Shown: positions 1,559-17,735 of the stretch, piece by piece
Layout: the number at the start of each line of letters is the position of its first letter
Position numbering within the stretch: position 1 is the stretch's first letter
The notes under the pieces: model-generated
Told to the model about the DNA's origin: nothing
Database searches by the model: none
The model's input: only the letters and a program-made list of their open reading frames with translations
Translations under genes and position numbers: made by a program
Source: Clostridia bacterium
GTDB taxonomy: Bacteria; Bacillota; Peptococcia; DRI-13; SM3-B62
DNA: 64,000 nucleotides
Assembly (NCBI GenBank): GCA_018433675.1
Contig: JAHDQS010000004.1
Coordinates: forward strand, 1 to 64,000
Direction: 5' to 3'

Positions 1559-1678
1559 TTGACAAAAGAAGTAACAGGGTGTATTTTAGTATAAAAGTTA
1601 GATTGATAAAACTTTAGAAACAGCATAAAGTGGGGTGAAAAAGCGAAAAATTTATCATAAAAGTTAGGGTCATCTAAC
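1559..1678 (+). promoter_or_regulatory. Candidate promoter and operator region of the nitrogenase-like operon
   Basis: TTGACA at 1559-1564 is followed after 17 bases by TATTTT at 1582-1587, a reasonable sigma-A type promoter facing the 1722 gene. Downstream, the 11-mer ATAAAAGTTAG occurs twice (1591-1601 and 1657-1667), and the second copy runs into a dyad GTTAG-N6-CTAAC at 1663-1678. Repeats in a leader are consistent with a repressor site, for example for metal-responsive control, but I cannot match them to a known Fur or DtxR consensus. Confidence 0.4.
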
Positions 1679-1721
1679 ATATTAAGACGAGAATATTAAT
1701 TTGATAAGAGTTGGTGATTAT

Positions 1722-2030
1722 ATGAGTATTGTTGTTGTGGGCGGGCACGATAGGATGCACGATGAATACAGATCCGTTTGTCATAAGCTGGGTCATCGCG
1801 TAAAAGTATATACCCAGATGCCGGCTCGTTTTGAAAAGGCCATAGGTAAACCTGACGGCATTGTGGTGTTTACCGGTACTGTTTCTCACAAAATGGTGAA
1901 TGTAGCCGTGAAAGAGGCTAAACGAAAGAAGATACCCGTAATGCGCAGCCATAGCAGTAGCGTATCAGCACTGGCAGAGTTGCTGGGAAAGTTTAAAGGA
2001 GAAGGATGCGCCGAATGTTCCAATTATTAA
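1722..2030 (+). CDS. DUF2325 domain protein
   Basis: A 102-residue protein of the DUF2325 family, recognisable by its start MSIVVVGGHDRMHDEY, the middle KPDGIVVFTGTVSHKMVN and the end KKIPVMRSHSSSVSALAELL. The fold is a small Rossmann-like domain of unknown role. An in-frame TTG lies at 1701, but ATG 1722 has the better upstream GGTG and matches the family N-terminus. Two cysteines close to the C-terminus (GCAEC) could bind metal or form a redox pair. It is the first gene of the chelate/nitrogenase-like operon, 18 bases before the first binding lipoprotein, so a regulatory or sensing role there is plausible but unproven. Confidence 0.8.
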   Translation: MSIVVVGGHDRMHDEYRSVCHKLGHRVKVYTQMPARFEKAIGKPDGIVVFTGTVSHKMVNVAVKEAKRKKIPVMRSHSSSVSALAELLGKFKGEGCAECSNY

Positions 2031-2048
2031 AAGAAAAAGGTGATCGAG

Positions 2049-3188
2049 ATGAGAAAAAAAGTAGGATTAATATTGGTCCTGGTAGTTTTTATAGGCACTG
2101 TCTATACGGTCGGGTGCAGCCAAAAACAAGAAATAGCCGACAAGTCCCCAGTGAAAACAACACAAAATACTGTTGTTGATCAGAATGGACGAGAAGTTGT
2201 CATTCCGGAGAAAACAGACAGGCTCGTCATGACGGCCTTGCCTCTTCCCAGCACATATGCCTTGACGGGCGAACCGGTTGAAAAAATCGTGGGAATGCAT
2301 CCGGGGGCAAAGGGAGCTATCGCCAATTCTATCATGGGGAAGATGCACCCCGAACTTTTAAAGGCAGAAACCTCCTTTGTCGAGGGTACGGATTTGAATA
2401 TCGAGCAACTGCTCAAGCTCAAGCCGGACCTTGTTTTTTATTGGGGCGACTATCAAAACCAGCATGAACAGTTAGAAACAGCGGGAGTCCCGGCCATAGG
2501 TGTAAAGACCCAGGGAGAGGGCGATGCTCTATATACTTTGGAAACATGGCTGGAGATATACGGTAAGGTTTTTAGACGGGATGCGGAGATAAAAGAGGTC
2601 ATCAAATACGGACGAGAGGTCCTGAGGGAGATTGAGGATAAGACCGCCGGGATAAAGGACGAAGAGCGGGTCAAAACGCTGGTGCTTTTTCAACATGGGG
2701 AAAAGGAAATAACTGTACCCGGCCAAGGACATTACGGCCAGTTTTGGATTGAAACGACAGGGGGATATAACGTAGCCGAGGACATAAACGTCACAGCCAA
2801 TGTCAATATGGAGCAGATCTACAAATGGGACCCCCAAATAGTTTTTATCAGCAGCTTTACGGACACAATGCCGGAAGACCTTTACCAAAATAAAATCAAG
2901 GGACAGAACTGGAGCAAGGTGGATGCGGTTAAAAATAAAAGGGTCTATAAGATCCCCGTAGGGGTTTACCGCTGGTATCCACCCAGTGGCGATGCGCCCC
3001 TGATGTTAAAATGGGTAGCCCAGCACCAGTACCCTGAAATATTTACATATGACATGGAAAAAGAAGTAAAGGAGTATTATCAAAAGTTTTACAATTACCG
3101 GCTTACTACAGAAGAGACCCAGAGTATTCTTAATACCAAAAAGGAAGCTTCCCAGGGTACCAAGGGCCAATTCGGCGGTCAGAAATAA
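2049..3188 (+). CDS. Metal-chelate ABC transporter substrate-binding lipoprotein 1
   Basis: A FepB/BtuF-type (class III) periplasmic-binding-fold lipoprotein. A signal peptide with hydrophobic core ends in a lipobox (TVGC, Cys near residue 26), then a linker and the domain opening [20 protein letters not shown]. It should capture an iron-siderophore, heme, corrinoid or similar chelate and deliver it to the FecCD-type permease encoded at 7611. ATG 2049 is preferred over GTG 2040 because AAAGGTG sits at the right distance. It is clearly paralogous to the lipoprotein at 6494: both share the stretch IYKW..P then PED-N-QNKIKG, RVYK-P-G-YRW and QYPEIF. Ligand unknown. Confidence 0.9.
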
Positions 3189-3217: not shown

Positions 3218-3979
3218 ATGAAAAAGATTGCATTCTATGGCAAAGGCGGCATTGGGAAATCGACAACCACCAGTGCGTTGTCGGCGGCTGTTTCCCTCTT
3301 GGGCTATAAAGTCATGCAGATCGGTTGTGACCCCAAAGCCGACTCAACCATTAATCTCACTAACGGACGAACTGTTACCCCAGTCATGAACTATCTTAAG
3401 GAACACGGAAGTTGTTCATCGCTGGAGGAAATCGCCGTAGAAGGATACAACGGCATCGTATGCGTCGAGGCGGGCGGTCCTACCCCTGGGCTTGGCTGCG
3501 CCGGTAGGGGGATTATTGCGGCCTTCAACATCCTTGAGGACCTGCAGGCCTTTGAAGTGTATCAACCGGATTTTGTCTTTTATGACGTGCTAGGCGACGT
3601 GGTGTGCGGCGGGTTTGCTATGCCCATAAGGGAAGGTTATGCCGACGAGGTCATTATCGTGACCTCCGGAGAAAAAATGTCTTTGTTTGCCGCAGGTAAT
3701 ATTAAAAGGGCAATTGATAATTTCGCCGGTCGAAATTATGCCCGCCTGCGCGGTATAATTTTAAACCGGCGCAATATCGACAAGGAGGAAAGTATTGTCC
3801 GTGATTTTGCACAAAAAATCGGTACCGAGATCATCGGCGATATCCCGCGCGATAATAACGTACAGCTATATGAAGAACAAAATAAAACAGTGATCGAGGG
3901 AAACCCTGATCTGAACATCTCCAGAGTTATTATGGAGATAGCCCGGAGTATAGTCGGTGACAAGGAGGCAGAGCAATGA
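3218..3979 (+). CDS. Nitrogenase iron protein-like (NifH/BchL-superfamily) reductase
   Basis: A 253-residue homolog of NifH, the ATP-dependent electron donor of nitrogenase-like enzymes. Visible features: P-loop GKGGIGKST (residues 8-16), switch CDPKADST (37-44), and the two cysteines that in NifH dimers hold a bridging [4Fe-4S] cluster, Cys94 in GLGCAGRG and Cys130 in GDVVCGGF. It should hydrolyse ATP and pass electrons to the D/K-like pair directly downstream. The stop overlaps the D-like start (ATGA at 3976-3979), indicating translational coupling. It is shorter than true NifH (about 290), and no NifB/E/N homologs are near, so it is not a nitrogen-fixation protein; it belongs with the divergent nitrogenase-like (Nfl, group IV-VI) proteins. 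Confidence 0.93.
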
Positions 3980-5289
3980 GTAAAACAAAACCTTTTTGCC
4001 TGTCTGTCTGCGAACTGGGCAGTACCGGCTCTGCCGACCGCCGCAGGGTCATGCCCCCCAATTACCTCCATTATTGCCCTCCCAGCGCCGGGGGTTGGGG
4101 GATTATCCGCGTGGGATTGCTGGTGCCCGAGTCGGTAATGCTTTTTGTATCGCCTGCGGGGTGCGGGCGTCACGGTGCTATCGCCGGCATTCAACTGGGT
4201 TTTAAAAAGCGGCTTTTCTTTTTACATATAAGCGAACTTGACATAGTTACCGGTCAACACCTGGAGAAAGTATTTCAGGCTGTTGCTGAAATATTGGCTG
4301 AGGTCCGGCCACGACCAAAGGCAATGACCATTTGCGCTACGTGCATTGATGACCTTTTAGGGTCCGATTATGACGCAATTGCCAAAGAATTGGAAAGCAA
4401 ACATGGTATTCCGGTGCGCGCCTGCCATATGGATCCTATCACTATGGACGGCAAGACTCCGCCCCCGTTTACAGTGCAACAAGCCGTCTACGATTTCATT
4501 CCCAGGTCGGATGAAAAAGAGCTTGCGGTTAATATCATCGGTAGTTTTGCCCCTTTTGCTCAGGACAGTGAATTTCATGAGATAATGTCTGCCGCCGGTC
4601 TTGAAAAGGTCAGGCACATAGCGGACTGCTCCACATTGGAGGAGTTTTACCGAATGGGCCGGGCAACGCACAACATCCTGGTCAAACCGGGCGGACGACT
4701 GGCGGTGCGCGCGATGGAAAGGAAACTGGGAATCCCTTATTGCTTTGCTCCGGTAGCTTACGGTCTTGACACGATTGACCGAAACTATCGAATGCTGGAA
4801 AAGTTTCTTGATATACAACTGTCCACAGAGGAATACCGTGAGGAAGCGCGGGAAACGGCAGACCATTACCGGCACATGATAGGCTCTCTTACCGTGGCGG
4901 TGGGAGAGACGGCAAACGCAAGTCCCTTTGAGATGGCGCGGGCCCTTATCGGGTACGGTTTTCACGTTCCGTATGTCTTTGCCGATATGACACTCGACAT
5001 TGACCAAGAGCATATCGAATGGCTCAAATGCCATGCTCCTGATATTAAAGTGTTTACAAATGTTCACCCTACGATGGTCGACTTTCTTCAGCAAAAATTA
5101 ACGGTAGATCTGGCTGTAGGTTTTGATGCGGGGTACTTCTGTTCAGGGGCAAAAACACTGCCGCTTTCCCTTGACGAGCAATTGTACGGATACCGGGGCG
5201 TTGCTTCTTTTTTCCGGCAAATGCTTAAGGTGTTGGAAAATCCACAAAACCACCGGGAGCAGATGTATGCTTCGGGCATGGTCATATAA
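3976..5289 (+). CDS. Nitrogenase component 1-like protein, D-like subunit
   Basis: A 437-residue NifD/NifE/BchN-superfamily protein, presumed catalytic partner of the K-like protein. Three cysteines sit where P-cluster ligands are expected: Cys34 (HYCPPS), Cys63 (SPAGCGRHG) and Cys120/123 ([12 protein letters not shown]). By hand alignment, the FeMo-cofactor ligands of NifD are absent: the Cys275 region reads ILVKPGGRL (about 235-242) and the His442 position is a Tyr (about 404, in LYGYRG). This implies a different substrate or cofactor site, as in tetrapyrrole reductases or CfbD-like enzymes. Its AAGGAGG ribosome site lies inside the H-like gene. The gene looks G+C richer than the genes around 38-40 kb. 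Reaction unknown. Confidence 0.9.
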
Positions 5290-5303
5290 GGAGGTTGAGA
5301 TTT

Positions 5304-6497
5304 ATGAAGGGATTGTACAAAGTATTGCCTCCTTTTGCACCCGACTATTCAGGGGTTTGCTCGGTACTGTTCGAATTGGGAGGGCTTGTAATTGTCCATG
5401 ACGCCGGCGGCTGCACCGGGAACGTTACAGGTTATGACGAACCTCGCTGGTATGGTAATTCCAGCGCCACCTTCAGCTCGGAATTACGGGAGATTGAGGC
5501 TGTAGTGGGAGACGATGAAAAATTTCTTGACAGGATTGAAGAGGCGGCCAAAGATTTAAAGAGGGGCTTTATCGCTATTCTCGGCAGTCCGGCGCCCATG
5601 GTGATCGGAACCGATTACCGCGCGCTCGCCGGTGTCATTTCGCAAAGAACAGGGCTTCCTTCTTTGGCTTTTGACACCAACGGGATAAGGTATTACGACG
5701 AAGGTGCGTCCATGGCCTTCCTAGAGCTGGCTAGGCAGTTTGTAAAACCCCCTGCCCTCCGTGAACAGGTCGTTAATATTATTGGGGCTACCCCGCTTGA
5801 CATCGGGAACGAACGTCATATCAAAAAAATCGCTTCATTGCTGCTTGAAGCCGGATGCAAGAAGGTTTCCTGCTGGGGCCTGGGTTCGACGCTGGAAGAT
5901 ATTGAAGAGGCAGGGCGGGCCGGCCTGAATATTGTAGTGTCCCGTTCCGGTCTGGCAGCAGCCCGTTATCTGCAGCGCGAATACAAAATTCCTTATTTGA
6001 CCGGGCTCCCTGTTGGGAAGGCATCCACCTGCCACTTTATTAAAGGTGTCCGTTTTCTATTTGATTACGACTACGATTTAAACGGGCCGTCGAATACGGC
6101 GCATCCGGGAACAAACGATCCTACAGCCCTGGTGATCGGCGAACAGGTGATCAGCAATTCTATCCGCGATTGCCTGCGGATGGATTTTGGGGTTAATAGG
6201 GTGACGGTGGCCTCCTTCTTTGGCCTGGACAAATCTCTGACAGAAAAGGGCGACATTTTCCTCGGGCATGAGAATGACCTTACCATACTGGTCAAGAAAC
6301 ACCATTATGATTTTATTGTGGGGGACCCGCTGTACAAAGAACTGCTGTCGGCAGGTGGACACAGCTTTATTGAAATCCCTCACGTTGCAGTTTCCAGTCG
6401 CTTGTACTGGGATAATGATCTTGACTATATCGGCTATGAAGGTACTGAGTTTTTTAAGCAGGCAATAAAACATAAAGACGAAAGGAAGATATTATGA
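5304..6497 (+). CDS. Nitrogenase component 1-like protein, K-like subunit
   Basis: A 397-residue second component-1-like subunit (NifK/NifN/BchB superfamily), expected to form a heterotetramer with the D-like protein. Start ATG 5304 follows AAGGAGG by 9 bases; the upstream TTG at 5295 has no site. N-terminal cysteines are Cys19 (SGVCS) and Cys37 (AGGCTGN); the third ligand position found in NifK is replaced by GSPAPMVIGTD (about 94-104), with no Cys. Later features are family-like: SCWGLGSTLEDIE and PYLTGLPVG. The 3' end overlaps the next lipoprotein start by ATGA (6494-6497), tying this enzyme to transport. Substrate unknown; a chelate or tetrapyrrole is the context-based guess. Confidence 0.88.
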   Translation: MKGLYKVLPPFAPDYSGVCSVLFELGGLVIVHDAGGCTGNVTGYDEPRWYGNSSATFSSELREIEAVVGDDEKFLDRIEEAAKDLKRGFIAILGSPAPMVIGTDYRALAGVISQRTGLPSLAFDTNGIRYYDEGASMAFLELARQFVKPPALREQVVNIIGATPLDIGNERHIKKIASLLLEAGCKKVSCWGLGSTLEDIEEAGRAGLNIVVSRSGLAAARYLQREYKIPYLTGLPVGKASTCHFIKGVRFLFDYDYDLNGPSNTAHPGTNDPTALVIGEQVISNSIRDCLRMDFGVNRVTVASFFGLDKSLTEKGDIFLGHENDLTILVKKHHYDFIVGDPLYKELLSAGGHSFIEIPHVAVSSRLYWDNDLDYIGYEGTEFFKQAIKHKDERKIL

Positions 6498-7582
6498 GAA
6501 CCAAGATAAAGAAAGTAATTTCGCTTGTGCTAGTATTGGGACTGATGTTGACAGTTCCGACCGGGTGCGGGAATAACACCGCGACGGAGAATACGAAGCA
6601 AACAGACAAGGTCAGGACCGTAACAGACCAAATCGAAAGAGAGGTAACACTGCCCCAACAGATAGATAAGGTGGTTTTAGTGAGTGTGCCGTTTGCCGCT
6701 GCCTATTACGCCGTAGTGGGTTCCATGGAAAAAGTTGTGGGGATACATCCCTTGGCGATGAGTGCGGCAGAGGCTTCGATGCTTTCTGTGATGGCACCGG
6801 AAATAAAGGAGGCTTCCACGGGCTTTACTAAGGGCGATGAAGTAAATATAGAAGAGCTCCTTAAATTAAATCCGGATGTTGTTTTCCAATGGTCCGGTTA
6901 TGAAAAGGAAATGACTAAATTAAGTGATGCGGGGCTAACGGTGATAGGGATGCAGGCGAACGTTGGCGATGAACATAGTATTGAACCGTGGTTTAGGATA
7001 ATCGGGGAAACAATGGGCAAGGAAGAACGGGCTGCCGAATTGATCGATTACCACCGCAAGACCCTGGAGGATATTGCTCTTGAGACAGCCAAAATACCCG
7101 CGGATAAAAAGGTTAACGCTTTAGTCTTGACTAATGCCGAAGAATTGCAAGTTGCCGATTATTGCTGGCCCAATGTAGCCGGTGCTATTGATCTGGCCGA
7201 AGGCTGCACCTGGGGAAAACAAGTAGATATGGAACAGATCTATAAATGGAATCCGGATGTAATATACATAGGGAATTTTTGCGACGACTATCCGGAAGAT
7301 ATTTTACAAAACAAAATAAAGGGGTTGGATTGGAGCCCCATAGAGGCTGTAAAAACAGGCAGGGTCTATAAAGTGCCGTTAGGCGAATACAGATGGGATC
7401 CTCCTTGCGCGGAGTGGTCGCTTATGTTTAAGTGGTGCGCTCAAAAACAGTATCCTGAAATTTTTAATGATTATGACATGAAAGAAGAAATCAGGAAATT
7501 TTATGCCGATATCTTCAACTATAGTATTTCCGATGAACAAATTGAGATGGTATTAACCCCCAAACCTACGGGGACATGGTGA
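6494..7582 (+). CDS. Metal-chelate ABC transporter substrate-binding lipoprotein 2
   Basis: A 362-residue paralog of the lipoprotein at 2049. The signal peptide ends in lipobox TGC (about residue 25), followed by VTDQIEREVTLPQQIDKVVL. The shared C-terminal block (IYKWNPDVIYIGNF, QNKIKG, RVYKVPLGEYRWDPP, QYPEIF) places both in one subfamily. Cysteines in CWPN, EGCTW, NFCDD and PPCAEW are absent or different in paralog 1, so ligand preference may differ. It starts within the K-like stop codon (ATGA) and precedes the permease by 28 bases, so it is the likely main partner of that permease. Confidence 0.9.
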   Translation: MRTKIKKVISLVLVLGLMLTVPTGCGNNTATENTKQTDKVRTVTDQIEREVTLPQQIDKVVLVSVPFAAAYYAVVGSMEKVVGIHPLAMSAAEASMLSVMAPEIKEASTGFTKGDEVNIEELLKLNPDVVFQWSGYEKEMTKLSDAGLTVIGMQANVGDEHSIEPWFRIIGETMGKEERAAELIDYHRKTLEDIALETAKIPADKKVNALVLTNAEELQVADYCWPNVAGAIDLAEGCTWGKQVDMEQIYKWNPDVIYIGNFCDDYPEDILQNKIKGLDWSPIEAVKTGRVYKVPLGEYRWDPPCAEWSLMFKWCAQKQYPEIFNDYDMKEEIRKFYADIFNYSISDEQIEMVLTPKPTGTW

Positions 7583-7610: not shown

Positions 7611-8648
7611 ATGCAGGAAGCTTTGGTTCAAATAAACAAAAAAAAGAATGCAAAAAAGACTGCTGTTGTATTAGTGATTCTGCCGATAATATTTTTCTTT
7701 GTTTCTATTTGTCTGGGCAGATATCTGGTGGCACCCGGGAAGGTCGTTAATATTCTTGCTGCCCAAGTGTTGCCTCTGGACGTAACGTGGTCCAGCATAG
7801 AGGAATCGGTAGTTTCCCAGATCAGGCTTCCCCGCATTATCATGGCGATGCTGGTAGGTGCCGGGCTGTCTGTTTCAGGTGCCGCCTTTCAGGGGTTGTT
7901 CGGGAATCCCTTGGTGAGTCCTCATATACTGGGTGTTTCCGCTGGAGCCGGATTTGGCGCTGCCTTGGGAATATTGATTTCCGGGCAGGCAGTAGTAATT
8001 CAATTTATGGCTATTAGTTTTGGCACACTGGCCGTTGTCATAACCTATCTAGTCAGTCGTATAAAAACAGGGACGCCGCTTTTTATGCTGGTGCTGTCGG
8101 GCATGATTACCCAGGCGTTTTTTACAGCGTTGATCTCACTCATTAAATACGTGGCCGATCCGGAAGAAGTGCTGCCCACTATCGTGTATTGGCTTATGGG
8201 AAGCATCTCAGGCGTTTCGTATGATGATCTCTGGATCGGGGCCCCCATGATCCTGGGCGGAATAATAATCCTGCTTTTGATGAGATGGAGGATCAATGTC
8301 TTATCTTTAAATGAAGAAGAGGCACGTTCGCTGGGGATCGATGTTCAAAAATCGAGATGGATAGTAATCATCGCCACTACCTTAATAACTTCCGCAGCGG
8401 TTTCTTTATGCGGGATAATCGGCTGGGTTGGACTGGTGATTCCGCATATCTGCAGAATGTTGGTAGGTCCTGATCACAGGGCTTTGTTGCCGGCGTGTGT
8501 TTCCATAGGTTCCTTTTATTTGCTGCTTATTGATGATATTGCCAGAACGGCGACGGCTGCGGAGATACCGCTGTCTATACTTACGGCCATTGTCGGAGCG
8601 CCGTTTTTTGCGTATCTGTTAAGAAAAACAGGAGGTAAATGGTCATGA
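7611..8648 (+). CDS. FecCD-family metal-chelate ABC permease
   Basis: A 345-residue integral membrane permease of the BtuC/FecCD family with about ten hydrophobic segments. Diagnostic segments are LPRIIMAMLVGAGLSVSGA, FQGLFGNPLVSPHILGVSAG, the cytoplasmic coupling region SLNEEEARSLGID, and GIIGWVGLVIPHICRMLVGPDHR. It forms a homodimeric channel with the ATPase encoded next and receives cargo from the two lipoproteins. AAGGAGG at 7596-7602 supports the ATG at 7611. Its stop overlaps the ATPase start (ATGA at 8645-8648). Substrate class is iron-siderophore, heme, corrinoid or another chelate. Confidence 0.95.
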   Translation: MQEALVQINKKKNAKKTAVVLVILPIIFFFVSICLGRYLVAPGKVVNILAAQVLPLDVTWSSIEESVVSQIRLPRIIMAMLVGAGLSVSGAAFQGLFGNPLVSPHILGVSAGAGFGAALGILISGQAVVIQFMAISFGTLAVVITYLVSRIKTGTPLFMLVLSGMITQAFFTALISLIKYVADPEEVLPTIVYWLMGSISGVSYDDLWIGAPMILGGIIILLLMRWRINVLSLNEEEARSLGIDVQKSRWIVIIATTLITSAAVSLCGIIGWVGLVIPHICRMLVGPDHRALLPACVSIGSFYLLLIDDIARTATAAEIPLSILTAIVGAPFFAYLLRKTGGKWS

Positions 8649-9430
8649 GACTTGAGGTAAAGAACGGAGAATTTACCTACGGAAAAGAAAAAAACCTTTT
8701 TGAAAAGATCTGCTTTTGGGTTGAAAAAGGCGAGATCATGACAATACTGGGGCCCAACGGGGCCGGGAAAACGACTTTGCTCAAATGCACTACTTCTCTT
8801 CTCAAGTGGGGGAAGGGAACGACCTTGATCAATCACCAACCTCTTAATGAATGGGGTGCAGGCGAGGTGTGGAAAAAGATGGCGTATGTGCCGCAAAGCA
8901 GTAGTAACGTTTTTTCCTACACGGTCCTGGATATGGTCCTGATGGGGAGAGCGCCATACCTGAATCTCTTTTCTGTACCTTCAGAACCCGATGTGGCAAT
9001 AGCAAGAAGTTCTCTTGAAACTGTGGGGATATCTTATCTTGAAGGAAAAAGGTGTTCGGAGATAAGTGGAGGAGAAATGCAGCTTGTCTTGATTGCCAGG
9101 GCCTTAACGTCTGAACCTAATATCCTTATACTTGACGAGCCCGAATCACACCTTGACTTCAAAAATCAGTTATTAATATTGGAAATTCTGAAAAAGATTG
9201 CGAAGAGGAAAGGAATAAGCTGCATCATCAATACCCACTTTCCTGCCCATGCCTTGCAGATATCGGATAAGACGCTGATGCTCGGCAAGGGGAGACAATA
9301 TCTTTTCGGAAAAACAGAAGAAGTAATTACCGAGAATAATCTGCGGGATTTTTTCAGTGTGAATGTAAAAATACTTTCCTTTGAAAACAAGGGAGAAATG
9401 ATGAAGACGGTTGTTCCGTTAGCCGGATAA
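8645..9430 (+). CDS. Metal-chelate ABC transporter ATP-binding protein
   Basis: A 261-residue FepC/BtuD-type ATPase that powers the FecCD permease. Walker A GPNGAGKTT, Q-loop YVPQSSSN, signature ISGGEMQL, Walker B ILILDEPESHLD and a switch histidine in NTHFPAHAL are all present. Of two nearby in-frame ATGs (8639, 8645), 8645 is chosen because it lies 9 bases after GGAGG and forms the common ATGA overlap with the permease stop. The signature reads EMQL rather than the usual QRQ, within the range seen in chelate ATPases. Confidence 0.95.
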   Translation: MRLEVKNGEFTYGKEKNLFEKICFWVEKGEIMTILGPNGAGKTTLLKCTTSLLKWGKGTTLINHQPLNEWGAGEVWKKMAYVPQSSSNVFSYTVLDMVLMGRAPYLNLFSVPSEPDVAIARSSLETVGISYLEGKRCSEISGGEMQLVLIARALTSEPNILILDEPESHLDFKNQLLILEILKKIAKRKGISCIINTHFPAHALQISDKTLMLGKGRQYLFGKTEEVITENNLRDFFSVNVKILSFENKGEMMKTVVPLAG

Positions 9431-9443
9431 GAGGTGGTTGTTA

Positions 9444-10082
9444 GTGGAAAGCAACAGACAATTAAAGGAACGTAATTTTTGGGATGCTTTTGCCAAAAGG
9501 TATGACCCGTTTATGAAGGGTTCACGCAAGTTGTACGAAGGTCTTCTGGAATCGATCGGGCAGGAGGTAGAGCCGGAATTTATTATTCTTGATCTTGCAA
9601 CAGGGACTGGTTTGCTCGCCTTGGAATTGGCACAGAAAGTGAAAAAAGTGGTTGGTATCGACATATCGCCCTGTATGATTGAAATTGCTAAATATAAATC
9701 CCTTCAGCGAAATATCGGAAACACCGAATTCTTTGTGGGAGATGCTTACCAATTGCCTTTCCCCCAAAACACATTTGATGCTGTGCTGATTTGCAATGCA
9801 TTACATGTCATGATTCAACCGGAGTGTGTTCTTGCGGAGGCCTACAGGGTTTTGAAAGAGGATGGCTTGTTGATTGCTCCGACTTTTTGTCATGGGGAAA
9901 GCAAAACCTCCCGTTTATCATCATTTGTGATGGGGCTTTTTGGCTTCAAAGCCTTTCGTAAATGGTCTGCTGCTTCATTAGAAAAATTTATAAATAGTAA
10001 TTATTTTGAAGTAATCAAGAAAGAGAAAACGAAGGGATTGATTCCGCTGTCCTTTTTAGTAGCAAAGAAGGGTCGGGCTTGA
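9444..10082 (+). CDS. Class I SAM-dependent methyltransferase
   Basis: A 212-residue methyltransferase of the Methyltransf_11/UbiE-like type. Motif I is ILDLATGTGLLALELA, followed by the acidic VVGIDIS, the GDAYQLPFP substrate-binding stretch, and VLICNALHVM. GTG 9444 is chosen because GAGGTGG lies 6-7 bases upstream; the alternative TTG 9438 overlaps that site. The stop TGA overlaps the next start (TGATG). Embedded between a chelate importer and two half transporters, it may methylate the imported chelate, a processed product or a metallophore; the substrate is not visible from sequence. Confidence 0.88.
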   Translation: MESNRQLKERNFWDAFAKRYDPFMKGSRKLYEGLLESIGQEVEPEFIILDLATGTGLLALELAQKVKKVVGIDISPCMIEIAKYKSLQRNIGNTEFFVGDAYQLPFPQNTFDAVLICNALHVMIQPECVLAEAYRVLKEDGLLIAPTFCHGESKTSRLSSFVMGLFGFKAFRKWSAASLEKFINSNYFEVIKKEKTKGLIPLSFLVAKKGRA

Positions 10083-11959
10083 TGCAAAGCCCAAGAAAAA
10101 GTGCTAAAGGTGGGTTGAAGGTTATGAATAATACAACAGCAACCGGGAAGAAGACCGGTATTCCACGTTTGTTGGAGATTGCAGGTGAGAAGAAGGGGTT
10201 ATTAATCCTTTCGGGCATACTCTCAGTCATCAGTACCTTACTGATGTTTGTTCCTTTTGTAGCAGTATATTTTATCGTGGAGGAGCTTTTAAAAAATGCG
10301 GTAAATCCGGCTTTGAGCGATATGGTGTATATTCGCCGGTGGAGTTTGTGGGCACTCTATTCATTATTGATTTCATTTTTATTTTTCTTTGGCAGCACAA
10401 TGGCGTCTCATATATCGGCCTTTCGTATCCTTTACGGTTTGAGAATACGATTGGCAAGGCATCTGGCTAAGCTGCCTATGGGTTATCATACACGCCAGTC
10501 TTCAGGTGCCATCAAAAAGACCTTGGAATTGAGCGTGGAAAAAATCGAGGGCTTTATAGCTCACCAGCTGCCGGACCTTGTGGGGGCCGTAGCGTTGCCT
10601 CTTGTCATGCTTGCGGTCATGTTCATTCTCGATTGGCGTATGGCAGTTGCCTGCGCTATACCGATAGTTGCCGCGTATCTATTGCAATCCATTGTTTTCT
10701 ACGGTGGTGAGGGAAAGGAAGCCATGAAGTATTATCATGATGCCTTAGAAAATATGAATGCGGCAGGAGTGGAATATGTTCGCGGCATGCCGGCTGTCAA
10801 GGTTTTTGGGCTCACTGTAAATACCTTTTTGCGTTTTAGCAGGGCCATTAATGATTACAGGGATTGGGCCGTTAAGTATACTAAATACTGCAAGCATCCT
10901 TACATAGTATTTACCACCATTTTAACCTCGCTTCTGTCCTTTATACTTCCTGTGGGAATCTTGCTTATCAGCGGCAGTCCTGAAAACCAGGCCCTTGCCC
11001 TTACTTTGATGCTGTTTCTCGTGCTGGCTCCGGGATTATCTACCCCTATGATGAAGTTGATGTATCTGGGTGGGAATATGAGGATCATCTCCGAGGGAGT
11101 AGAAAGGATGGATGAGATATTTGCGCAAAAACCCCTTGCTGAACCGAAAGTTCCTAAAATCCCCGAAGGTTACCGCATAGAATTTGAGGATGTCAGTTTC
11201 TCTTATGACGACAAGGATGCTGCAACCCGAACAGAGGCTCTAGCCTGTGTATCCTTCACGGCACAAGAGAAACAAATCAGCGCTCTTGTAGGTCCTTCGG
11301 GCAGCGGTAAGTCTACCATTGCCAGTCTGATTCCTCGCTTCTGGGACGTTTCGTCGGGCTACATTCGTATCGGGGGAGTGGATATACGGGAAATGGGAAC
11401 TGAAAATCTGATGGAGCTTGTCTCCTTCGTTTTTCAGGATGTACACCTCTTTTATGACACCATTGAAGAAAACATCCGGATGGGAAATGCAAACGCAACC
11501 CGGGAACAAGTCATTGAGGCGGCCAAAGCAGCCTGCTGTCACGAATTTATTGAAAATTTGCCTTGGGGTTATAGTACAAAGATCGGAGAAGGAGGAACAT
11601 ATCTTTCGGGAGGAGAGGCGCAGCGAGTCGCTATCGCCCGGGCCATTCTCAAGAATTCACCTATCCTGGTGCTTGACGAAGCCACGGCTTTTGCCGATCC
11701 TGAAAACGAAACGAAGATCCAGGAAGGGTTATGTGCCCTCATTAGAGGCAAAACAGTCATTATTATTGCGCATAGGCTTTCCACGATTCGTGAGGCTGAT
11801 CAGATTCTGGTAGTGGATGGTGGGCAAATTGTGGAATCAGGCAAACATGACGAGCTTATAAAAAATAACGGTCTTTACAATCGGATGTGGGAGGCCCATG
11901 TAGATGCCGGAGACTGGTCTCTCTCCAAAGATAAAAAAACCAAGGCGGTGAACGGATAA
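10082..11959 (+). CDS. YbtP/IrtA-like ABC half transporter (TMD-NBD)
   Basis: About 625 residues: an N-terminal six-helix ABC transmembrane domain (about 30-325) and a C-terminal nucleotide-binding domain. Walker A GPSGSGKST, signature LSGGEAQR and Walker B LVLDEATAFADPENE are visible; the FADPENE D-loop is characteristic of the YbtPQ/IrtAB siderophore transporters, which have exporter fold but import ferric siderophores. It should heterodimerise with the next gene product. ATG 10082 overlaps the methyltransferase stop; ATG 10124, behind AAAGGTGGG, is an equally plausible start giving MNNTTATGKKTG. Confidence 0.88.
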   Translation: MQSPRKSAKGGLKVMNNTTATGKKTGIPRLLEIAGEKKGLLILSGILSVISTLLMFVPFVAVYFIVEELLKNAVNPALSDMVYIRRWSLWALYSLLISFLFFFGSTMASHISAFRILYGLRIRLARHLAKLPMGYHTRQSSGAIKKTLELSVEKIEGFIAHQLPDLVGAVALPLVMLAVMFILDWRMAVACAIPIVAAYLLQSIVFYGGEGKEAMKYYHDALENMNAAGVEYVRGMPAVKVFGLTVNTFLRFSRAINDYRDWAVKYTKYCKHPYIVFTTILTSLLSFILPVGILLISGSPENQALALTLMLFLVLAPGLSTPMMKLMYLGGNMRIISEGVERMDEIFAQKPLAEPKVPKIPEGYRIEFEDVSFSYDDKDAATRTEALACVSFTAQEKQISALVGPSGSGKSTIASLIPRFWDVSSGYIRIGGVDIREMGTENLMELVSFVFQDVHLFYDTIEENIRMGNANATREQVIEAAKAACCHEFIENLPWGYSTKIGEGGTYLSGGEAQRVAIARAILKNSPILVLDEATAFADPENETKIQEGLCALIRGKTVIIIAHRLSTIREADQILVVDGGQIVESGKHDELIKNNGLYNRMWEAHVDAGDWSLSKDKKTKAVNG

Positions 11960-13701
11960 TGAAAAAGTTCTTTTACAATATGTCCAGCGGCGATCCTAAA
12001 TCCCTTGTCGTATCATGTTTAGCCTCGTTACTTGATGGTCTTTGCAAAATAGTGCCCGCAGCAATAATCCTAGATGTAATCAATACGATATATATTCCCT
12101 TTGCGAATCCAAATACTCCTTTGAATACCTCAAGGCTATGGTTTTCCTGCGCTCTGCTTATAGGGTGGATGGCGGTACAGTATGCAGCGTCAGGATATGC
12201 TTACAGCAAAACCTTCACCGCGGCTTATGATGCCTCGGCTAGGGGACGTACCGCCCTGGCGGAACATCTGAGGAAGCTTTCTTTGGGGTTCTTCGGCAGC
12301 CGTGACCCGGGTGATCTTACCACGATGATGCTGGGTGATTATGCGACGGTTGAAATGTCTATTTCGCATCACATCCCGCAGTTGGTCAGCGCAGTGGCAT
12401 TACCGCTTATTGCCTTTGTCTCCCTTATATTTATCAATTGGCAAATGGCAGTTGCCATGTTTATTGCCCTTCCTTTTTCGTTACTTGTCGTGTGGCTTTC
12501 CAGAGGGCTCCAGGCAAGGCTCAGCAGTAATCATGTCAAGGCAAAGGTGGACAGCGCCAGCCGTTTGCAGGAGTATCTGCTGGGAATGAGGGAAATCAAG
12601 TCCCATAACCTCAGTGGTGAGCGTTTTAAACGTTTGCAAGACGCTTTTGCGAGGCTAATGAAGGAATCCATCAGAATAGAAGGTATAATCGGTTCGGTCA
12701 TGATCGTAGCTATATCTGTCATGCGTTCCGGGCTTACCCTGATGATTTTTGCGGGGACCTATCTTTTAGTGGGGGGGAAACTCACCATGCCGGTCTTCTT
12801 GGTATTTCTGCTGTTGGGGACCCGTGTATTTGAGCCCTTGACCATGGTGTTTATAAATTATGCTGAATTTAAGTACTCAACTTTCAGCGCTGAACGCATT
12901 ATGCAAATACGTCAGGAAAAACCGCTTCCAGGCGTAAAACAGGCACCGTCAGGAAACAGTATTGAATTTGAGAATGTAACCTTCGCCTATGATAAGAGCG
13001 ATGTGCTAAAAAATGTATCTTTCTCTATCTCGCCCAAGAGCATCACAGCCTTAGTCGGCCCTTCCGGCAGCGGCAAGAGCACAATAACACGCCTGATTGC
13101 TAGGTTCTGGGATGTGCAGAGCGGCAGGGTGCTGATTGATGGCAGGGATATAAAGGAAGTTGATCCGGAAATGCTTTTATCGCGTATCTCTATGGTATTT
13201 CAGGATGTTTACCTTTTCAAGGACACCATTCGCAACAATATCAAAGTCGGCAAGATAAATGCCAGTCAGGAAGAAATTGAATGGGCGGCCAGGCAGGCTT
13301 GCTGCCACGACTTTATCATGAAACTGCCCCAGGGTTATAATACCCCTATCGGTGAAGGGGGTTGCACCCTTTCAGGCGGGGAAAAGCAGCGTATATCCAT
13401 TGCCAGGGCATTGTTAAAGGATGCGCCGATAGTGCTCTTGGATGAAGCCACAGCATCCCTTGATCCGGAAAACGAAATCCAGGTACAGCGTGCAATTAAC
13501 GCCTTGGTCAGCAATAAAACAGTGGTTATCATTGCTCACCGTCTGAAGACCATCAAAGGAGCAGACAAGATTATCGTTTTAGAAGACGGAAAGGTAGTGG
13601 GGCAAGGGACACATGAAGAATTACAAGCCAAACAAGGGCTGTATAATCACCTGTGGACACTGCAACAGCAATCGGCGGGCTGGAGGATGAAAGCTTCATG
13701 A
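11959..13701 (+). CDS. YbtQ/IrtB-like ABC half transporter (TMD-NBD)
   Basis: A 580-residue partner of the preceding half transporter: six-helix membrane domain, then an ATPase domain with GPSGSGKST, YLFKDTIRNN, signature LSGGEKQR and Walker B IVLLDEATASLDPENE. Its start overlaps the upstream stop (TAATG), so the pair is probably made stoichiometrically. Heterodimers of this type import and help release siderophore iron (IrtAB, YbtPQ) or export small molecules. Here it ends the operon that starts with DUF2325, so it may import a chelate, export the demetallated ligand, or act in metallophore recycling. Confidence 0.88.
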   Translation: MKKFFYNMSSGDPKSLVVSCLASLLDGLCKIVPAAIILDVINTIYIPFANPNTPLNTSRLWFSCALLIGWMAVQYAASGYAYSKTFTAAYDASARGRTALAEHLRKLSLGFFGSRDPGDLTTMMLGDYATVEMSISHHIPQLVSAVALPLIAFVSLIFINWQMAVAMFIALPFSLLVVWLSRGLQARLSSNHVKAKVDSASRLQEYLLGMREIKSHNLSGERFKRLQDAFARLMKESIRIEGIIGSVMIVAISVMRSGLTLMIFAGTYLLVGGKLTMPVFLVFLLLGTRVFEPLTMVFINYAEFKYSTFSAERIMQIRQEKPLPGVKQAPSGNSIEFENVTFAYDKSDVLKNVSFSISPKSITALVGPSGSGKSTITRLIARFWDVQSGRVLIDGRDIKEVDPEMLLSRISMVFQDVYLFKDTIRNNIKVGKINASQEEIEWAARQACCHDFIMKLPQGYNTPIGEGGCTLSGGEKQRISIARALLKDAPIVLLDEATASLDPENEIQVQRAINALVSNKTVVIIAHRLKTIKGADKIIVLEDGKVVGQGTHEELQAKQGLYNHLWTLQQQSAGWRMKAS

Positions 13702-13774: not shown

Positions 13775-14533
13775 CTATTGGCAAGTGGAGACATCAAGGC
13801 TTAGTTTCTTTCGTTCCATGAATTGTCTTTCCAATTCATAATCATATTCTTTGTTTATGAATTCACCTATTAAGATAAGTCCATCCTGGACTTTTTCTTT
13901 TTTTAGACGATCTTCAATAGTAAGCAAGTCTCCCTGAACTATCTTTTGTTCCGGCCAGCTTGCCTTTGAAATGACGACAACAGGAGTTTCCGACGGATAA
14001 TGATTTTTAAATGCTTTGCACACACCAGAAATCTTTTCAACAGACATAAAAAGAGCGACACTGGCCTGAAGTGAGGCGATTTTTTCTAAATGGCCCTCTA
14101 TATCCGATGTATCCTTGCAAGTAGTACAGATAGCAGTATTAGAAATACCCAGTCCTGTCATTCCTCTTTTCATGATGGCGGTAGAAGCATTAAATGCACT
14201 AACTCCTGGCACTATTTCATAGTCTATCATTGCTTTTTCCAACCGATCCGACAAGCCTTGAATCATACCATACAAACAAGGGTCCCCCATATTTACAAAG
14301 GCCACGATTTTTCCTTCCCGTACTGCTTCTTTGATCATAACCATTTTTTCTCCATAGGAGAATTTGAAGTTATCGTAGATAATACAACCCTCCTTTATGT
14401 CTTGGAACATTTTATCCGTGAAAAACCGGAAACTCGTGAAAATAATATCGGCATTTTTAATTATTTTTTTTCCTTTAACTGTTATTAACTCGGGATCACC
14501 GGGTCCACCAGCTACGATATATACGTTCTTCAT
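13775..14533 (-). CDS. Tetrapyrrole methylase, CbiF/CobM-like (precorrin-4 C11-methyltransferase family)
   Basis: A 252-residue SAM-dependent tetrapyrrole methylase. The N-terminal VYIVAGGPGDPELITVKG, the NMGDPCLYG loop and the EIVPGVSAFNASTAIM segment are hallmarks of the precorrin/cobalt-precorrin methylases, closest by eye to CbiF/CobM. No other corrin-ring biosynthesis gene is visible in the window, so it is an orphan placed last in a riboswitch-controlled uptake operon. It may serve a cobalamin pathway encoded elsewhere or modify an imported tetrapyrrole. A precorrin methylase of another position is possible; the family is certain, the position specificity is not. Confidence 0.85.
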   Translation of the reverse strand: MKNVYIVAGGPGDPELITVKGKKIIKNADIIFTSFRFFTDKMFQDIKEGCIIYDNFKFSYGEKMVMIKEAVREGKIVAFVNMGDPCLYGMIQGLSDRLEKAMIDYEIVPGVSAFNASTAIMKRGMTGLGISNTAICTTCKDTSDIEGHLEKIASLQASVALFMSVEKISGVCKAFKNHYPSETPVVVISKASWPEQKIVQGDLLTIEDRLKKEKVQDGLILIGEFINKEYDYELERQFMERKKLSLDVSTCQ

Positions 14534-14549
14534 TTATAAAACTCCTTTC

Positions 14550-15335
14550 TTACATTAAAGTGTCGGTTTTTTGCAGCGAACGTACGGGAGAAACTACCGG
14601 AATTCCTTTGTTATCATAAATTACATTAGCTTCTACCCCGTAAACATTTCTGAGCATTTCCTCCGTGACAATATCTTTTGGACTACCGCTGGCATAAACA
14701 GAGCCATTACAATCCAAAATGGTAAGCTGCTCCGCATGCCGGCAAGACAGATTAAGATCATGCATAACGATGATAAACTTGATATCTTTATCTGCAATGA
14801 TTTGATGTATTACATCAAAAAGTTCTAACTGTTTCTGCATATCAAGGCTATTTGTAGGTTCATCCATAAGAATTACTTTTGGATCTCTTACCAAAGTTTG
14901 GGCAATTGAAACAAGTTTTTTTTGCCCCCCCGAAATTTCCCCGGCGAATCTTTCTGCAAGTGGTTCTATATGAAGTCCTTTCAACGCACCATATACTTTT
15001 TCAAGATCCCTGTTCGTTACATGCCAACTTAAAGAAGAAATCCTTCCCAACAAAGCAACCTCAAAAACTGTCAGATAAGTAGCCGGCATTTCTTCTTGGG
15101 GCAGATATGCCATAATATTTCTTCTCTCATCCTTTGACAGAGACGAAAGGTCGTCACCTTCCCAACAAATGGTCCCTTGTGCTTTCAATAATCCAAAAAG
15201 GCACTTCAGAAGGGTTGATTTACCGGCAGCGTTGGGACCTATGACTACATTCAAATTTTTCTTAAATTCAATTGAAAGGTTTTCGAAGACAGGAACAGTA
15301 CCATATCTAAAAGTTAGAGAATCAATACTAATCAC
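14550..15335 (-). CDS. Chelate/corrinoid ABC transporter ATP-binding protein
   Basis: A 261-residue BtuD/FepC-type ATPase. Walker A GPNAAGKST, Q-loop YLPQEEMPA, signature ISGGQKKL, Walker B VILMDEPTNSLD and the switch His in VMHDLNLS are present. Its start overlaps the permease stop by 4 bases. With the permease and lipoprotein it makes a complete importer; the upstream cobalamin riboswitch points to cobalamin, cobinamide or a corrinoid precursor as substrate. Confidence 0.94.
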   Translation of the reverse strand: MISIDSLTFRYGTVPVFENLSIEFKKNLNVVIGPNAAGKSTLLKCLFGLLKAQGTICWEGDDLSSLSKDERRNIMAYLPQEEMPATYLTVFEVALLGRISSLSWHVTNRDLEKVYGALKGLHIEPLAERFAGEISGGQKKLVSIAQTLVRDPKVILMDEPTNSLDMQKQLELFDVIHQIIADKDIKFIIVMHDLNLSCRHAEQLTILDCNGSVYASGSPKDIVTEEMLRNVYGVEANVIYDNKGIPVVSPVRSLQKTDTLM

Positions 15336-16378
15336 ATGTAACTCCTCTTCCGTTGTAAAATCAGGGCAGCAAAGAATGGAATACCAATTATTGAAGTAAT
15401 AAGACCTATGGGTAGAATAGTACCCGGCACAAGAATTTTACATAAAATGGAGGCCAAAGAAAGGATTAAAGCACCGATAAGAGCCGATAGAGGAAGAAAG
15501 TAGCGCTGATCCTCTCCGCTGATCATTCTGGCAAGATGGGGGGCAACCAATCCTACAAAACCAATAGTGCCGGCAAAGCTTACCGTTGTTGCGGCAAGTA
15601 AAGCAACAAAGAAGATTGTGTTTCTTCGAACCTGATTTACATCAATGCCCAGGCTTAAGGCATTGGTGTCACTTAAAGACATTGCTGTAAGTTTCCAGGC
15701 CTTTCTCGCAAAGATAATGAAACATAGAACTGTGACAAATACTGTTACCGCTAATTTTTCCCAACTCATCTTTGTTAGGCTTCCAAACGACCAAAAAACA
15801 AAAGACTGCAAGTCAACTTCATTGGCTACGTATTTTATCAGAGTAGTTAATGAACCGAAAAGAAAATTCAACGCTATTCCAAACAGTATAATAATGCCGC
15901 GATCAGCTCCGGATTTTTTCGAAAAAGCAATAATTACTCCTGCCGCGAGCATTGTAAATAATAATGAGTTTGCAATAAGCATATAATTACCGATACCCGG
16001 AATGACACTGAATCTAAGAACTATCGCCAGTGCAGCCCCAAAGGAAGCTGCACTGGATAGTCCTAAGGTATAAGCGCTGGCCATCGGATTTCTTAGAATG
16101 GTTTGCATTTCACAACCAGCCATGCCCAAAGCAGCACCAATAAAAACAGCCGAAAGAGCAACCGGCATACGGATATCCCAAACAACTAAAATACTGGTAT
16201 CATCTGCTTGTCTTATAATAGCCGCGACTGTTTGACCTAAAGTTAGTCCTGCACTGCCTACAAAAATATTAATGACAAGACTAAATAGTATGACAAAAAT
16301 CAAAACTGTTATAATGGTTATTTTTTTTTGCACAATGTTTATATAGATTTCACGTCCTGCCTGTACAGTTTTGTCCAT
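15332..16378 (-). CDS. FecCD/BtuC-family permease
   Basis: A 348-residue multi-span permease with about ten hydrophobic helices. Family segments include MPVALSAVFIGAALGMAGCEM, LRNPMASAYTLGLSSAASFG, SLSDTNALSLGIDVNQ and GFVGLVAPHLARMISGEDQR. It abuts the lipoprotein stop directly and overlaps the ATPase start. It is only distantly similar to the permease at 7611, so the two transporters are separate systems rather than a recent duplication. Confidence 0.94.
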   Translation of the reverse strand: MDKTVQAGREIYINIVQKKITIITVLIFVILFSLVINIFVGSAGLTLGQTVAAIIRQADDTSILVVWDIRMPVALSAVFIGAALGMAGCEMQTILRNPMASAYTLGLSSAASFGAALAIVLRFSVIPGIGNYMLIANSLLFTMLAAGVIIAFSKKSGADRGIIILFGIALNFLFGSLTTLIKYVANEVDLQSFVFWSFGSLTKMSWEKLAVTVFVTVLCFIIFARKAWKLTAMSLSDTNALSLGIDVNQVRRNTIFFVALLAATTVSFAGTIGFVGLVAPHLARMISGEDQRYFLPLSALIGALILSLASILCKILVPGTILPIGLITSIIGIPFFAALILQRKRSYM

Positions 16379-17494
16379 TTAAAAGTCCTCTCTCTGAACA
16401 AACCATACTCCCTCATCATAATCAAGAAGCATATAACGATCAAAGTATTCTTTTAGTATTTTAGGAGGGTTTGTATCTGCAAATTCTTCGGGATAAAAGA
16501 GCTTGGCTAAAAACAAAGAGGGATAAAAAGTCATTTGATTTCTCTCATATCCATGAGGTAGCTCGTAATAATTGTTTTCACTTACAGCTTTGAGCTTGTC
16601 CCAACCAACACGCTTTGCATATTCATCAAGAACAGCGGTTCCTTTATAAATATCCTCTCCAAAACCGAGGGCTCCTGCGATAATTATAAAATCCGGATTG
16701 CTTGTTATTAAGTATTCGGGGTCTATTTGAGCGCTGCTACCGCCGGTATTCGCAGCAATATTAATACCACCGGCATATTCAATAATATCGGACCAAGATC
16801 CTGAAGCCCAGGTTGAGTCATATTTATCGGCCGATCCGGATCCTTTTTCCATATAAACTGTTGGCTTATCTGTTCTTTCAGAAAGATTCTTGCTATTTAT
16901 TAATTCAAATTGAGTATTGATGAAACTGTTTAATTCCAGAGCCCTATCTTCTTTCCCGAAAACTTTTCCAAGCAATTCAATACCGATTTGAGGTGTTTCC
17001 ATGGGTCTAGCTGCAAGATTTAAGATAATTGAAGGGATTCCTGCCTTCTCTAATGTGCCTATCATTTCGGAGATTTTTTCCGGAGTTGTCGAATTGATTA
17101 TGAATACATCAGGTTTCAAGGCAATAATAGCTTCGACGTCAAAAGGCCCTCCGCCACCGCCTCCGATATTGGGCAATGATTTTAAATGAGGATATTCTCC
17201 GGAATATTTATCTGCATACAAGGATTTCATAAATTCTGAAGTCTTATTGTTCCCTACCGCGACCGTTTTTCCTAAAGTATCTTCTCCTACAACTGAAAAA
17301 ACAACCTCCGCACATCCCCATTGATCAAAAACAATTTTTTCAATCGTTCCTTCGATGGTGACCTCCCTTCCGGTCATATCGGTTACTGTTATCGCGGATT
17401 CGTTGTCATTTGAATTCACAGCAGCCTGTTTTGAACAACCAACAGCAACAAATGTTGTAAGCACGAGCAATAATACTAGAATGCTTTTTCTCAT
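16379..17494 (-). CDS. Chelate/corrinoid-binding lipoprotein (BtuF/FepB family)
   Basis: A 371-residue class III binding lipoprotein with signal peptide and lipobox VGC (about residue 20), then ITVTDMTGREVTIEGTIEKIVF. A glycine-rich GGGGGGP stretch follows the domain start. ALKPDVFIIN and TSNPDFIIIAGALGFGEDIY are typical of this fold. First gene of the riboswitch operon, about 240 bases downstream of the aptamer. It differs strongly from the two lipoproteins at 2049 and 6494. Confidence 0.9.
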   Translation of the reverse strand: MRKSILVLLLVLTTFVAVGCSKQAAVNSNDNESAITVTDMTGREVTIEGTIEKIVFDQWGCAEVVFSVVGEDTLGKTVAVGNNKTSEFMKSLYADKYSGEYPHLKSLPNIGGGGGGPFDVEAIIALKPDVFIINSTTPEKISEMIGTLEKAGIPSIILNLAARPMETPQIGIELLGKVFGKEDRALELNSFINTQFELINSKNLSERTDKPTVYMEKGSGSADKYDSTWASGSWSDIIEYAGGINIAANTGGSSAQIDPEYLITSNPDFIIIAGALGFGEDIYKGTAVLDEYAKRVGWDKLKAVSENNYYELPHGYERNQMTFYPSLFLAKLFYPEEFADTNPPKILKEYFDRYMLLDYDEGVWFVQREDF

Positions 17495-17621
17495 TTTTTT
17501 CGACCTTCTTTCAGCAAATTAAATTAACAAGACAAAAACGACTATGTTTTAATATCTCCTCCCTTCCAAGGGTGACTTTTGGCAACCCGGCGAACCTGTT
17601 GACCCATGTTGGAAATTGTTC

Positions 17622-17660
17622 AAAAAAAATCTCCCAGCATAAAAATGCTAAGAGATTTTC
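17622..17660 (-). terminator. Riboswitch expression-platform terminator
   Basis: On the minus strand a 15-base-pair stem (two G-U pairs, arms 17645-17659 and 17626-17640) with a TTTT loop is followed by an uninterrupted run of U. It lies between the cobalamin aptamer and the first transporter gene, exactly where transcription attenuation would act. Confidence 0.88.
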
Positions 17661-17735
17661 CCATTCTGAAATCATCTTGACTCACAAATGAATGTGGACT
17701 GTAAAAAAACAATATTTCCCCTTGCTTTTTTTACA

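Follow-up and report, generated by a model that had tools for sequence, protein, structure and literature searches.

The locus examined here raises the question of what a nitrogenase-like gene trio does in an operon built for metal uptake. It lies in a 64,000-nucleotide stretch of contig JAHDQS010000004.1 from a Clostridia bacterium (assembly GCA_018433675.1), hereafter the window, in which genes for a NifH-type Fe protein (H) and two component-1-like subunits (D and K) stand between two lipoproteins of the substrate-binding protein (SBP) class and ahead of a FecCD-type permease. The operon runs DUF2325-SBP-H-D-K-SBP-FecCD-ATPase-methyltransferase-two half-transporters, with all named genes intact. 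The observations support genes of a distinct clade with a characteristic pattern of cluster ligands, a linkage to importers that holds across genera and, ahead of the window operon, a palindrome common to it and dtxR-feoAB. We propose that H/D/K is coupled to the importer and uses ATP to drive the low-potential reduction of the metal chelates brought in, which in the window would be iron chelates, a reading to which we give an even chance. Neither the palindrome nor the DUF2325 gene at the operon start figured in a first-pass annotation of this DNA.

Iron regulon and importer linkage

The palindrome, GTTAG-N6-CTAAC, was first noticed on visual inspection of leaders from orthologous operons. 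Genome-wide counts of the site against a reversed control were 7 versus 1 in the window genome (G000), 11 versus 2 in G013, 4 versus 3 in G228 and 3 versus 2 in the congener genome G012. In all four genomes the palindrome stands before dtxR-feoA-feoB or feoB, gene identities being assigned by Pfam, and in some of them it also precedes YbtPQ-like pairs and DUF2325 genes; other sites stand ahead of genes that lie close to a binding protein of the oligopeptide/nickel type and to a class-III SBP. A scan of 500-nt leaders, allowing at most one mismatch and with the expectation taken from dinucleotide shuffles, found 17 palindromes in the leaders of 54 loci of clade A, the clade of the window D and K, against about 0.6 expected; the leaders of 12 HypDEF-type loci and of 27 other loci contained none. 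The palindrome was 37-fold enriched in the clade-A leaders relative to the remaining sequence of those loci (Fisher p 2e-18, a guide only, the loci being partly related), and the leaders bearing it come from 11 loci in 11 genomes of seven families. The sharing of the palindrome with dtxR-feoAB and related genes, together with the leader enrichment, suggests that the window operon most likely belongs to a DtxR-type iron regulon, and this assignment is well supported. No report linking nitrogenase-like genes to siderophores, DtxR or riboswitches was found in the open-access literature.

Fur and NikR boxes were also considered as regulatory sites and set aside, as their matches were scattered and weak, with as many as 3 mismatches, and followed no consistent pattern among window-type loci. 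Good Fur-like matches do occur at L128, a locus of the more distant clade B (L numbers denote fetched neighbourhoods). Elsewhere in the window genome, four palindromes fall within 22 kb of contig C34 (L157 3932 and 15290, L158 1320 and 5534), where the neighbouring genes encode a YbtPQ-like pair, an importer of the oligopeptide/nickel type and a class-III SBP; this is probably an iron-acquisition island. DUF2325 genes turn up repeatedly in company with either the H/D/K operon or the iron-regulon palindrome, as in the window itself (1701-2030), at L164 4148-4438 and at L105 4744.

Linkage of the trio to transport genes was surveyed by whole-genome searches and 80 fetched neighbourhoods, a single-protein contig scan having returned only a 91% relative. 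With linkage defined as a same-strand FecCD gene within 6 kb of H-D-K, the trio adjoins FecCD in 33 of the 42 clade-A loci without HypD, most commonly in the order H-D-K-SBP-FecCD-ATPase, and some of the nine unlinked loci are contig ends or other trios. The same module is found on plasmid pTS1 of Treponema saccharophilum (L171 8220-14516; clade A, Spirochaetota), so the linkage to transport that the first-pass annotation had staked its proposal on is conserved in relatives. Clade B trios too are linked to FecCD importers, e.g., on a Sporomusa termitida plasmid (L174 981-8305); since the module is plasmid-borne in both of these species, it probably moves between phyla. YbtPQ-like half-transporters also adjoin other clade-A D genes, a notable case being G436, where a FeoB-like gene is close by.

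A single family, represented by 35 sequences, unites the clade-A SBPs, and its invariant positions include D47, E122, P129, E258, W263, F273, W291, K304 and P306. No histidine is conserved across the 35, so that an IsdE-like axial histidine is not seen. The nearest solved relatives of the first SBP are 4ovk, a periplasmic binding protein with no stated ligand, and HI_1472, both well ahead of BtuF and IsdE, giving mixed hints on the ligand.

The genes of the operon are listed in Table 1. Together, the Peripla_BP_2 SBPs, the FecCD permease and the ATP-binding cassette (ABC) ATPase make up a complete class II importer set of the FecCD/BtuCD type, and the composition described by the first-pass annotation (the trio with its flanking lipoproteins, permease, ATPase, methyltransferase and half-transporters) was confirmed by Pfam, as was the YbtPQ-like character of the half-transporters by their closest half-size solved structures (YbtP 369 bits, YbtQ 321 bits). 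The translational coupling that it had described for the whole trio holds in part. ATGA overlaps join H to D, and also K to the second SBP, whereas the stop codon of D at 5289 is followed by a GGAGG ribosome site and a likely ATG start of K at 5304, the listed open reading frame (ORF) of K beginning at TTG 5295. Compared with congener G012, all operon genes examined are under purifying selection, with ratios of nonsynonymous to synonymous substitution rates (dN/dS) of 0.08-0.17. The operon contains no gene for a maturase, a recognisable client enzyme or porphyrin metabolism, no siderophore synthase, no IrtA-type reductase domain and no radical S-adenosylmethionine (SAM) gene of the MarB, NifB or IsrB kind. 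In this survey, a methyltransferase at that operon position occurs in the window's genus only. Methylation enzymes of differing families nonetheless recur near H/D/K-importer operons, including O-methyltransferases (Methyltransf_2, 344 aa) beside those of L063 (4822-5856) and L090 (5926-8616), the latter also with DUF4198.

Table 1. Features of the H/D/K operon (window positions) and extents of related operons (positions within the fetched neighbourhoods)
Feature	Position	Strand	Remarks
Sigma-70-like promoter TTGACA-17-TATTTT	1559..1587	+	upstream of operon; same region kept in congener L062
Palindrome GTTAGGGTCATCTAAC, candidate operator of a DtxR-type iron regulator	1663..1678	.	motif also before dtxR/feoA/feoB and YbtPQ-like genes
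DUF2325 protein	1701..2030	+	opens operon; PF10087 E 1.1e-31; second palindrome-bearing DUF2325 gene in G013
SBP1, class-III substrate-binding lipoprotein	2040..3188	+	PF01497 (Peripla_BP_2) E 1.4e-26; nearest solved structures 4ovk, HI_1472
H, NifH-type ATP-dependent Fe protein	3218..3979	+	PF00142 (Fer4_NifH) E 5.7e-87; nearest solved structures are nitrogenase Fe proteins
D, component-1-like subunit	3976..5289	+	PF00148 (Oxidored_nitro) E 1.7e-37; C63/C123 equivalent to alphaC88/alphaC154
K, component-1-like subunit	5304..6497	+	PF00148 (Oxidored_nitro) E 6.6e-30; start from ribosome site; C40 at betaC95 / BchB Asp36
SBP2, second class-III substrate-binding lipoprotein	6494..7582	+	PF01497 (Peripla_BP_2) E 7.4e-19
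FecCD-type permease	7611..8648	+	PF01032 E 2.5e-89
Importer ABC ATPase	8639..9430	+	PF00005 E 6.1e-27
Class I SAM-dependent methyltransferase (Methyltransf_25/11)	9438..10082	+	Pfam
ABC half-transporter, YbtP-like	10079..11959	+	YbtP 6p6i_A 368.6 bits, top half-size solved structure
ABC half-transporter, YbtQ-like	11959..13701	+	YbtQ 6p6i_B 321 bits, top half-size solved structure
H/D/K-importer operons with molybdenum cofactor (Moco) riboswitch or MoeA	L079 3569-13632, L080 7553-15490, L118 8449-15386, L120 2925-11417

Family placement and cluster ligands of H, D and K

H has a Fer4_NifH domain with a Walker A motif and two cluster cysteines, DVVCGGFA being read in the sequence, and scores 320 bits against the curated NifH model (cut-off 394) and 319 bits against CfbC (cut-off 402), thus below both. 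The best curated scores of D (NifE, 62 of 505 bits) and K (BchB, 49.3 of 490 bits) are far below the cut-offs; the DPOR model BchN likewise reaches only 33.6 of 420 bits, and the CfbD model TIGR03282 gives no match to D and 16.4 of 268.4 bits to K. A FastTree phylogeny of 178 component-1-like proteins, in which named NifD, NifK, NifE, NifN, BchN, BchB, BchY and BchZ from plasmid records served as references, places the window D and K in clade A (support 1.0 for D with 49 members, 0.996 for K with 54 members), which contains none of the Nif or Bch references. CfbD, Mar and Isr were set apart from the window trio by curated models, subunit make-up and ligands rather than by tree placement. The reading of the first-pass annotation would have failed had D and K belonged to a characterised group; they lie outside NifDKEN and BchNBYZ by the tree, far below the CfbD model by score, and lack the cofactor cysteine that marks the Mar/Nfl group. 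Curated models and the tree, with its Nif and Bch references, thus led to the rejection of a CfbCD or DPOR identity for the family.

Aligned to the Nif and Bch references, C63 and C123 of D, the equivalents of alphaC88 and alphaC154, are invariant in 29 D sequences, and a further cysteine, C34, near alphaC62, is found only in the window's subclade. C40 of K (numbered from TTG 5295) falls in the betaC95 column, the position of BchB Asp36, and is kept in most clade-A members. At the columns of the iron-molybdenum cofactor (FeMoco) ligands alphaC275 and alphaH442, window D has no cysteine or histidine, and betaC70 and betaC153 are absent from window K; among the six P-cluster cysteines, only the alphaC88, alphaC154 and betaC95 equivalents are present, plus C34 near alphaC62. 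This pattern argues for one bridging [4Fe–4S] cluster and against FeMoco and a normal P-cluster, and it fits a DPOR-like cluster, as judged from sequence: DPOR draws three cysteines from N and one ligand from B, and the window would supply C63, C123 and possibly C34 from D with C40 from K. An AlphaFold2 model of D built from two sequences had a predicted local distance difference test score (pLDDT) of 37 and was discarded. In clade B, three cysteines occur in D and none in K. Some HypFDE-type loci apparently have D and K fused into a single protein (790-870 aa), and some importer-type loci have a shortened D of about 250-270 aa (L076-L078, L085-L087, L089).

Clade A is not new, since Dos Santos et al. 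described its cysteine pattern in 2012 for the uncharacterised Group IV proteins Dhaf_1539/1540 and Mlab_1040/1039 (PMC3464626), which, as here, have two D cysteines (alphaC88, alphaC154), one K cysteine (betaC95) and no FeMoco ligands. The same study noted nitrogenase-like genes co-located with ABC transporters, among them those of M. labreanum, without a function, so that the first-pass statement that such genes are not normally part of uptake operons was overstated. The 2012 description, with which the window is compared here by description, consists of a tree, a ligand pattern and neighbourhoods; it differs in having no function, regulon, SBP conservation or division among Fe, B12 and Mo.

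DPOR (BchLNB) resembles the window trio in combining an H-type protein with two component-1-like subunits and, as the ligand pattern suggests, in a single [4Fe–4S] cluster held by both subunits with no large metallocluster. However, the window K has cysteine in place of BchB Asp36, belongs to a separate clade and lies among transport rather than pigment genes. CfbCD shares the ATP-driven NifH-like donor, the anaerobic host and what is probably a [4Fe–4S]-only acceptor, but CfbD is a homodimer without a K subunit. IsrHDK and MarHDK are likewise Group IV H/D/K trios, and growth on the Isr substrate requires importer genes that lie in the Isr locus (PMC11423573, PMC12552129). In contrast to the window trio, Mar has a P-cluster and an Fe8S9C cluster, the ligands of which the window lacks, including the cofactor cysteine of the Mar/Nfl group (alphaC275), missing from both D and K, and Mar and Isr each have a radical SAM partner (PMC11423573, PMC12552129). 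YbtPQ and IrtAB share with the last two genes the heterodimeric exporter fold of their half-transporters; the difference is that the window operon has neither a siderophore synthase nor an IrtA-type reductase domain, and H/D/K would be the reductase.

Relatives with other regulators and partners

Related operons stand under other regulators, as called from Rfam matches only, a regular expression for B12 boxes having missed several. Four operons form a B12 subclade (L084, L089, L137, L138; K-tree support 0.976), and in all four a cobalamin riboswitch lies upstream of H, with a gap of 832 bp in L084. A Mo subclade (L079, L118, L120) is grouped in both trees (D 0.984, K 0.956); Moco riboswitches occur at L079, at the similar locus L080 and at L120, and MoeA-like genes lie inside the operons of L079, L080 and L118. 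The window genome itself has a second H/D/K set, of clade B and in the order SBP-FecCD-ATPase-D-K-H (L091 7228-13934, contig C44), directly behind a cobalamin riboswitch, and its K scores 149 bits against BchB. The regulator thus differs between subclades (iron, B12, Moco), which is most simply explained if H/D/K acts on the importer's cargo and each change of substrate went along with a change of regulator.

Downstream of the window operon, a convergent operon on the minus strand (13775-17903) encodes an SBP, FecCD, an ATPase and a CbiF-like tetrapyrrole methylase (TIGR01465, 180 of 260 bits). It is headed by a cobalamin riboswitch at 17728-17903, is distinct from the H/D/K operon and probably serves corrinoid uptake. 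This riboswitch was considered as the regulator of the window operon and rejected, as it lies upstream of the convergent operon instead.

Other clade-A trios, often two per locus, stand with HypF-HypD-HypE and/or HydE and HydF (L073-L078, L108-L110, L113, L115, L116, L082, L083, L112, L114), the identities of HydE and HydF being given by TIGR03956 and TIGR03918 above cut-off. Among 23 genomes chosen for such trios, with near relatives, HydA is above its curated cut-off in all 23 and HydG in none (best 222 of 312 bits), a count from partly related genomes that is not to be taken as a probability. For comparison, HydG is found in 100 of 147 genomes of the same class and in 17 of 24 importer-type genomes. 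The HydE/HydF- or HypFDE-linked trios may take the place of HydG in assembling the H-cluster. Acetogens without an identified hydG have been discussed (PMC9431212), in passages that offer no explanation by a clade-A trio. The window genome has HydA, and HydG was not detected above 55 bits in it or in congener G012. The idea that the window trio acts in H-cluster maturation was set aside all the same, since HydG is present in those 17 importer-type genomes, including G013, whose D is 75% identical; the importer-linked trio is thus not tied to H-cluster maturation.

Proposed function and competing explanations

The preferred reading takes the operon to be an iron-starvation module. The two lipoproteins, the FecCD permease and the ATPase would import an iron chelate, and the YbtPQ-like pair may move a related one into or out of the cell. 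H would feed low-potential electrons, driven by ATP, to a D/K heterotetramer with one DPOR-type [4Fe–4S] cluster, which would bind the imported chelate and free its iron by reduction, probably of the metal itself from Fe(III) to Fe(II). What remains of the chelate may then be recycled or marked by the methyltransferase. Such chemistry is plausible, since NAD(P)H can be too weak a reductant for tight Fe(III) complexes, Co(II) corrinoids and oxidised Mo/W complexes. Tight Fe(III) chelates require electrons of a low potential that NAD(P)H cannot reach and that NifH-type donors supply. The first-pass annotation had proposed ATP-driven reduction of an imported chelate for metal release or tetrapyrrole modification. 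Metal release is the part that fits best, since the operon carries the iron-regulon palindrome, while the tetrapyrrole option finds no support in the window, the nearby B12 riboswitch belonging to the convergent operon. Extended to the whole of clade A, a tentative and somewhat doubtful generalisation would have importer-coupled nitrogenase-like chelate reductases for Fe (DtxR-type palindrome), corrinoids (cobalamin riboswitches) and Mo/W (Moco riboswitches and MoeA), with a branch recruited to metallocofactor assembly beside HydE/HydF or HypFDE, where it may replace HydG.

Several points weigh against chelate reduction in the window. We infer the substrate, the product and the activity of H/D/K alike, and binding of the palindrome by DtxR itself is suggested by association. 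The palindrome is missing from the leaders of 3 of the 8 members of the window D-subclade (L065, L066, L117), and G059 (L065) has H-D-K without FecCD. The HypFDE- or HydE/HydF-linked trios do not fit a simple uptake role, and HI_1472, the closest characterised relative of the first SBP, is a molybdate/tungstate binder. Anaerobes, moreover, normally obtain Fe(II) through Feo, and an ATP-costly reductase would be extravagant unless the chelate were very stable.

The main rival, unlikely on present evidence, takes D/K for a NifEN-like scaffold or maturase that uses importer-delivered metal and H to assemble or reduce a metallocofactor for another enzyme. It is kept at this strength because other clade-A members sit with HydE and HydF, HypF-HypD-HypE or MoeA, and it gains from the NifE model being the best curated match of D, far below cut-off though it is, and from the proposal by Dos Santos et al. 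of metal transport coupled to cofactor assembly (PMC3464626). Against it, the window operon offers neither maturase nor recognisable client, its partners being two SBPs, an importer and half-transporters under an iron palindrome, and the distribution of HydG separates importer-type trios from H-cluster maturation. A tetrapyrrole ring reductase, in which the importer would bring heme or a corrinoid and D/K would reduce the macrocycle as in DPOR, COR and CfbCD, e.g., opening heme for metal release, is clearly less probable. The characterised [4Fe–4S]-only relatives do act on tetrapyrroles, BchB is the best curated match of K, and cobalamin riboswitches precede related operons, including that of the second set in the window genome; however, the window operon itself carries the iron palindrome and no cobalamin riboswitch, the 35 SBPs share no conserved histidine, and the operon has no porphyrin gene.

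An iron-sparing or stress enzyme, performing an unrelated reduction merely induced at low iron, with the transport genes as co-regulated passengers, appears very improbable. Regulation alone gives no function, and we infer the link to the substrate, which leaves room for such an enzyme, but the importer linkage is kept over many genera and into a second phylum, and the module has been rewired to B12 and Moco regulators, as would not be expected of a passenger. That the trio belongs, however divergent, to one of the characterised families (nitrogenase, DPOR, COR, CfbCD or Mar/Isr) is hardly credible: the Pfam domains are the same and H scores 320 bits against NifH, yet all curated cut-offs are missed, D and K group outside the Nif and Bch references, the FeMoco and P-cluster ligands are missing and the operon has no radical SAM gene.

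Large parts of the nitrogenase superfamily have been without a function since they were first seen. The clade and its co-location with transporters were already known; what is new is the iron-regulon palindrome on an H/D/K operon. With one clade tied to an iron regulon and its sister subclades to control by B12 or Moco, candidate substrates can be named. If the proposed function is correct, anaerobes would gain an enzyme for the release of siderophore or heme iron, the superfamily would have a role outside N2, pigment, F430 and C–S chemistry, and nitrogenase-type ATP-driven electron delivery would be a general anaerobic route to open chelates that resist ordinary reductants.

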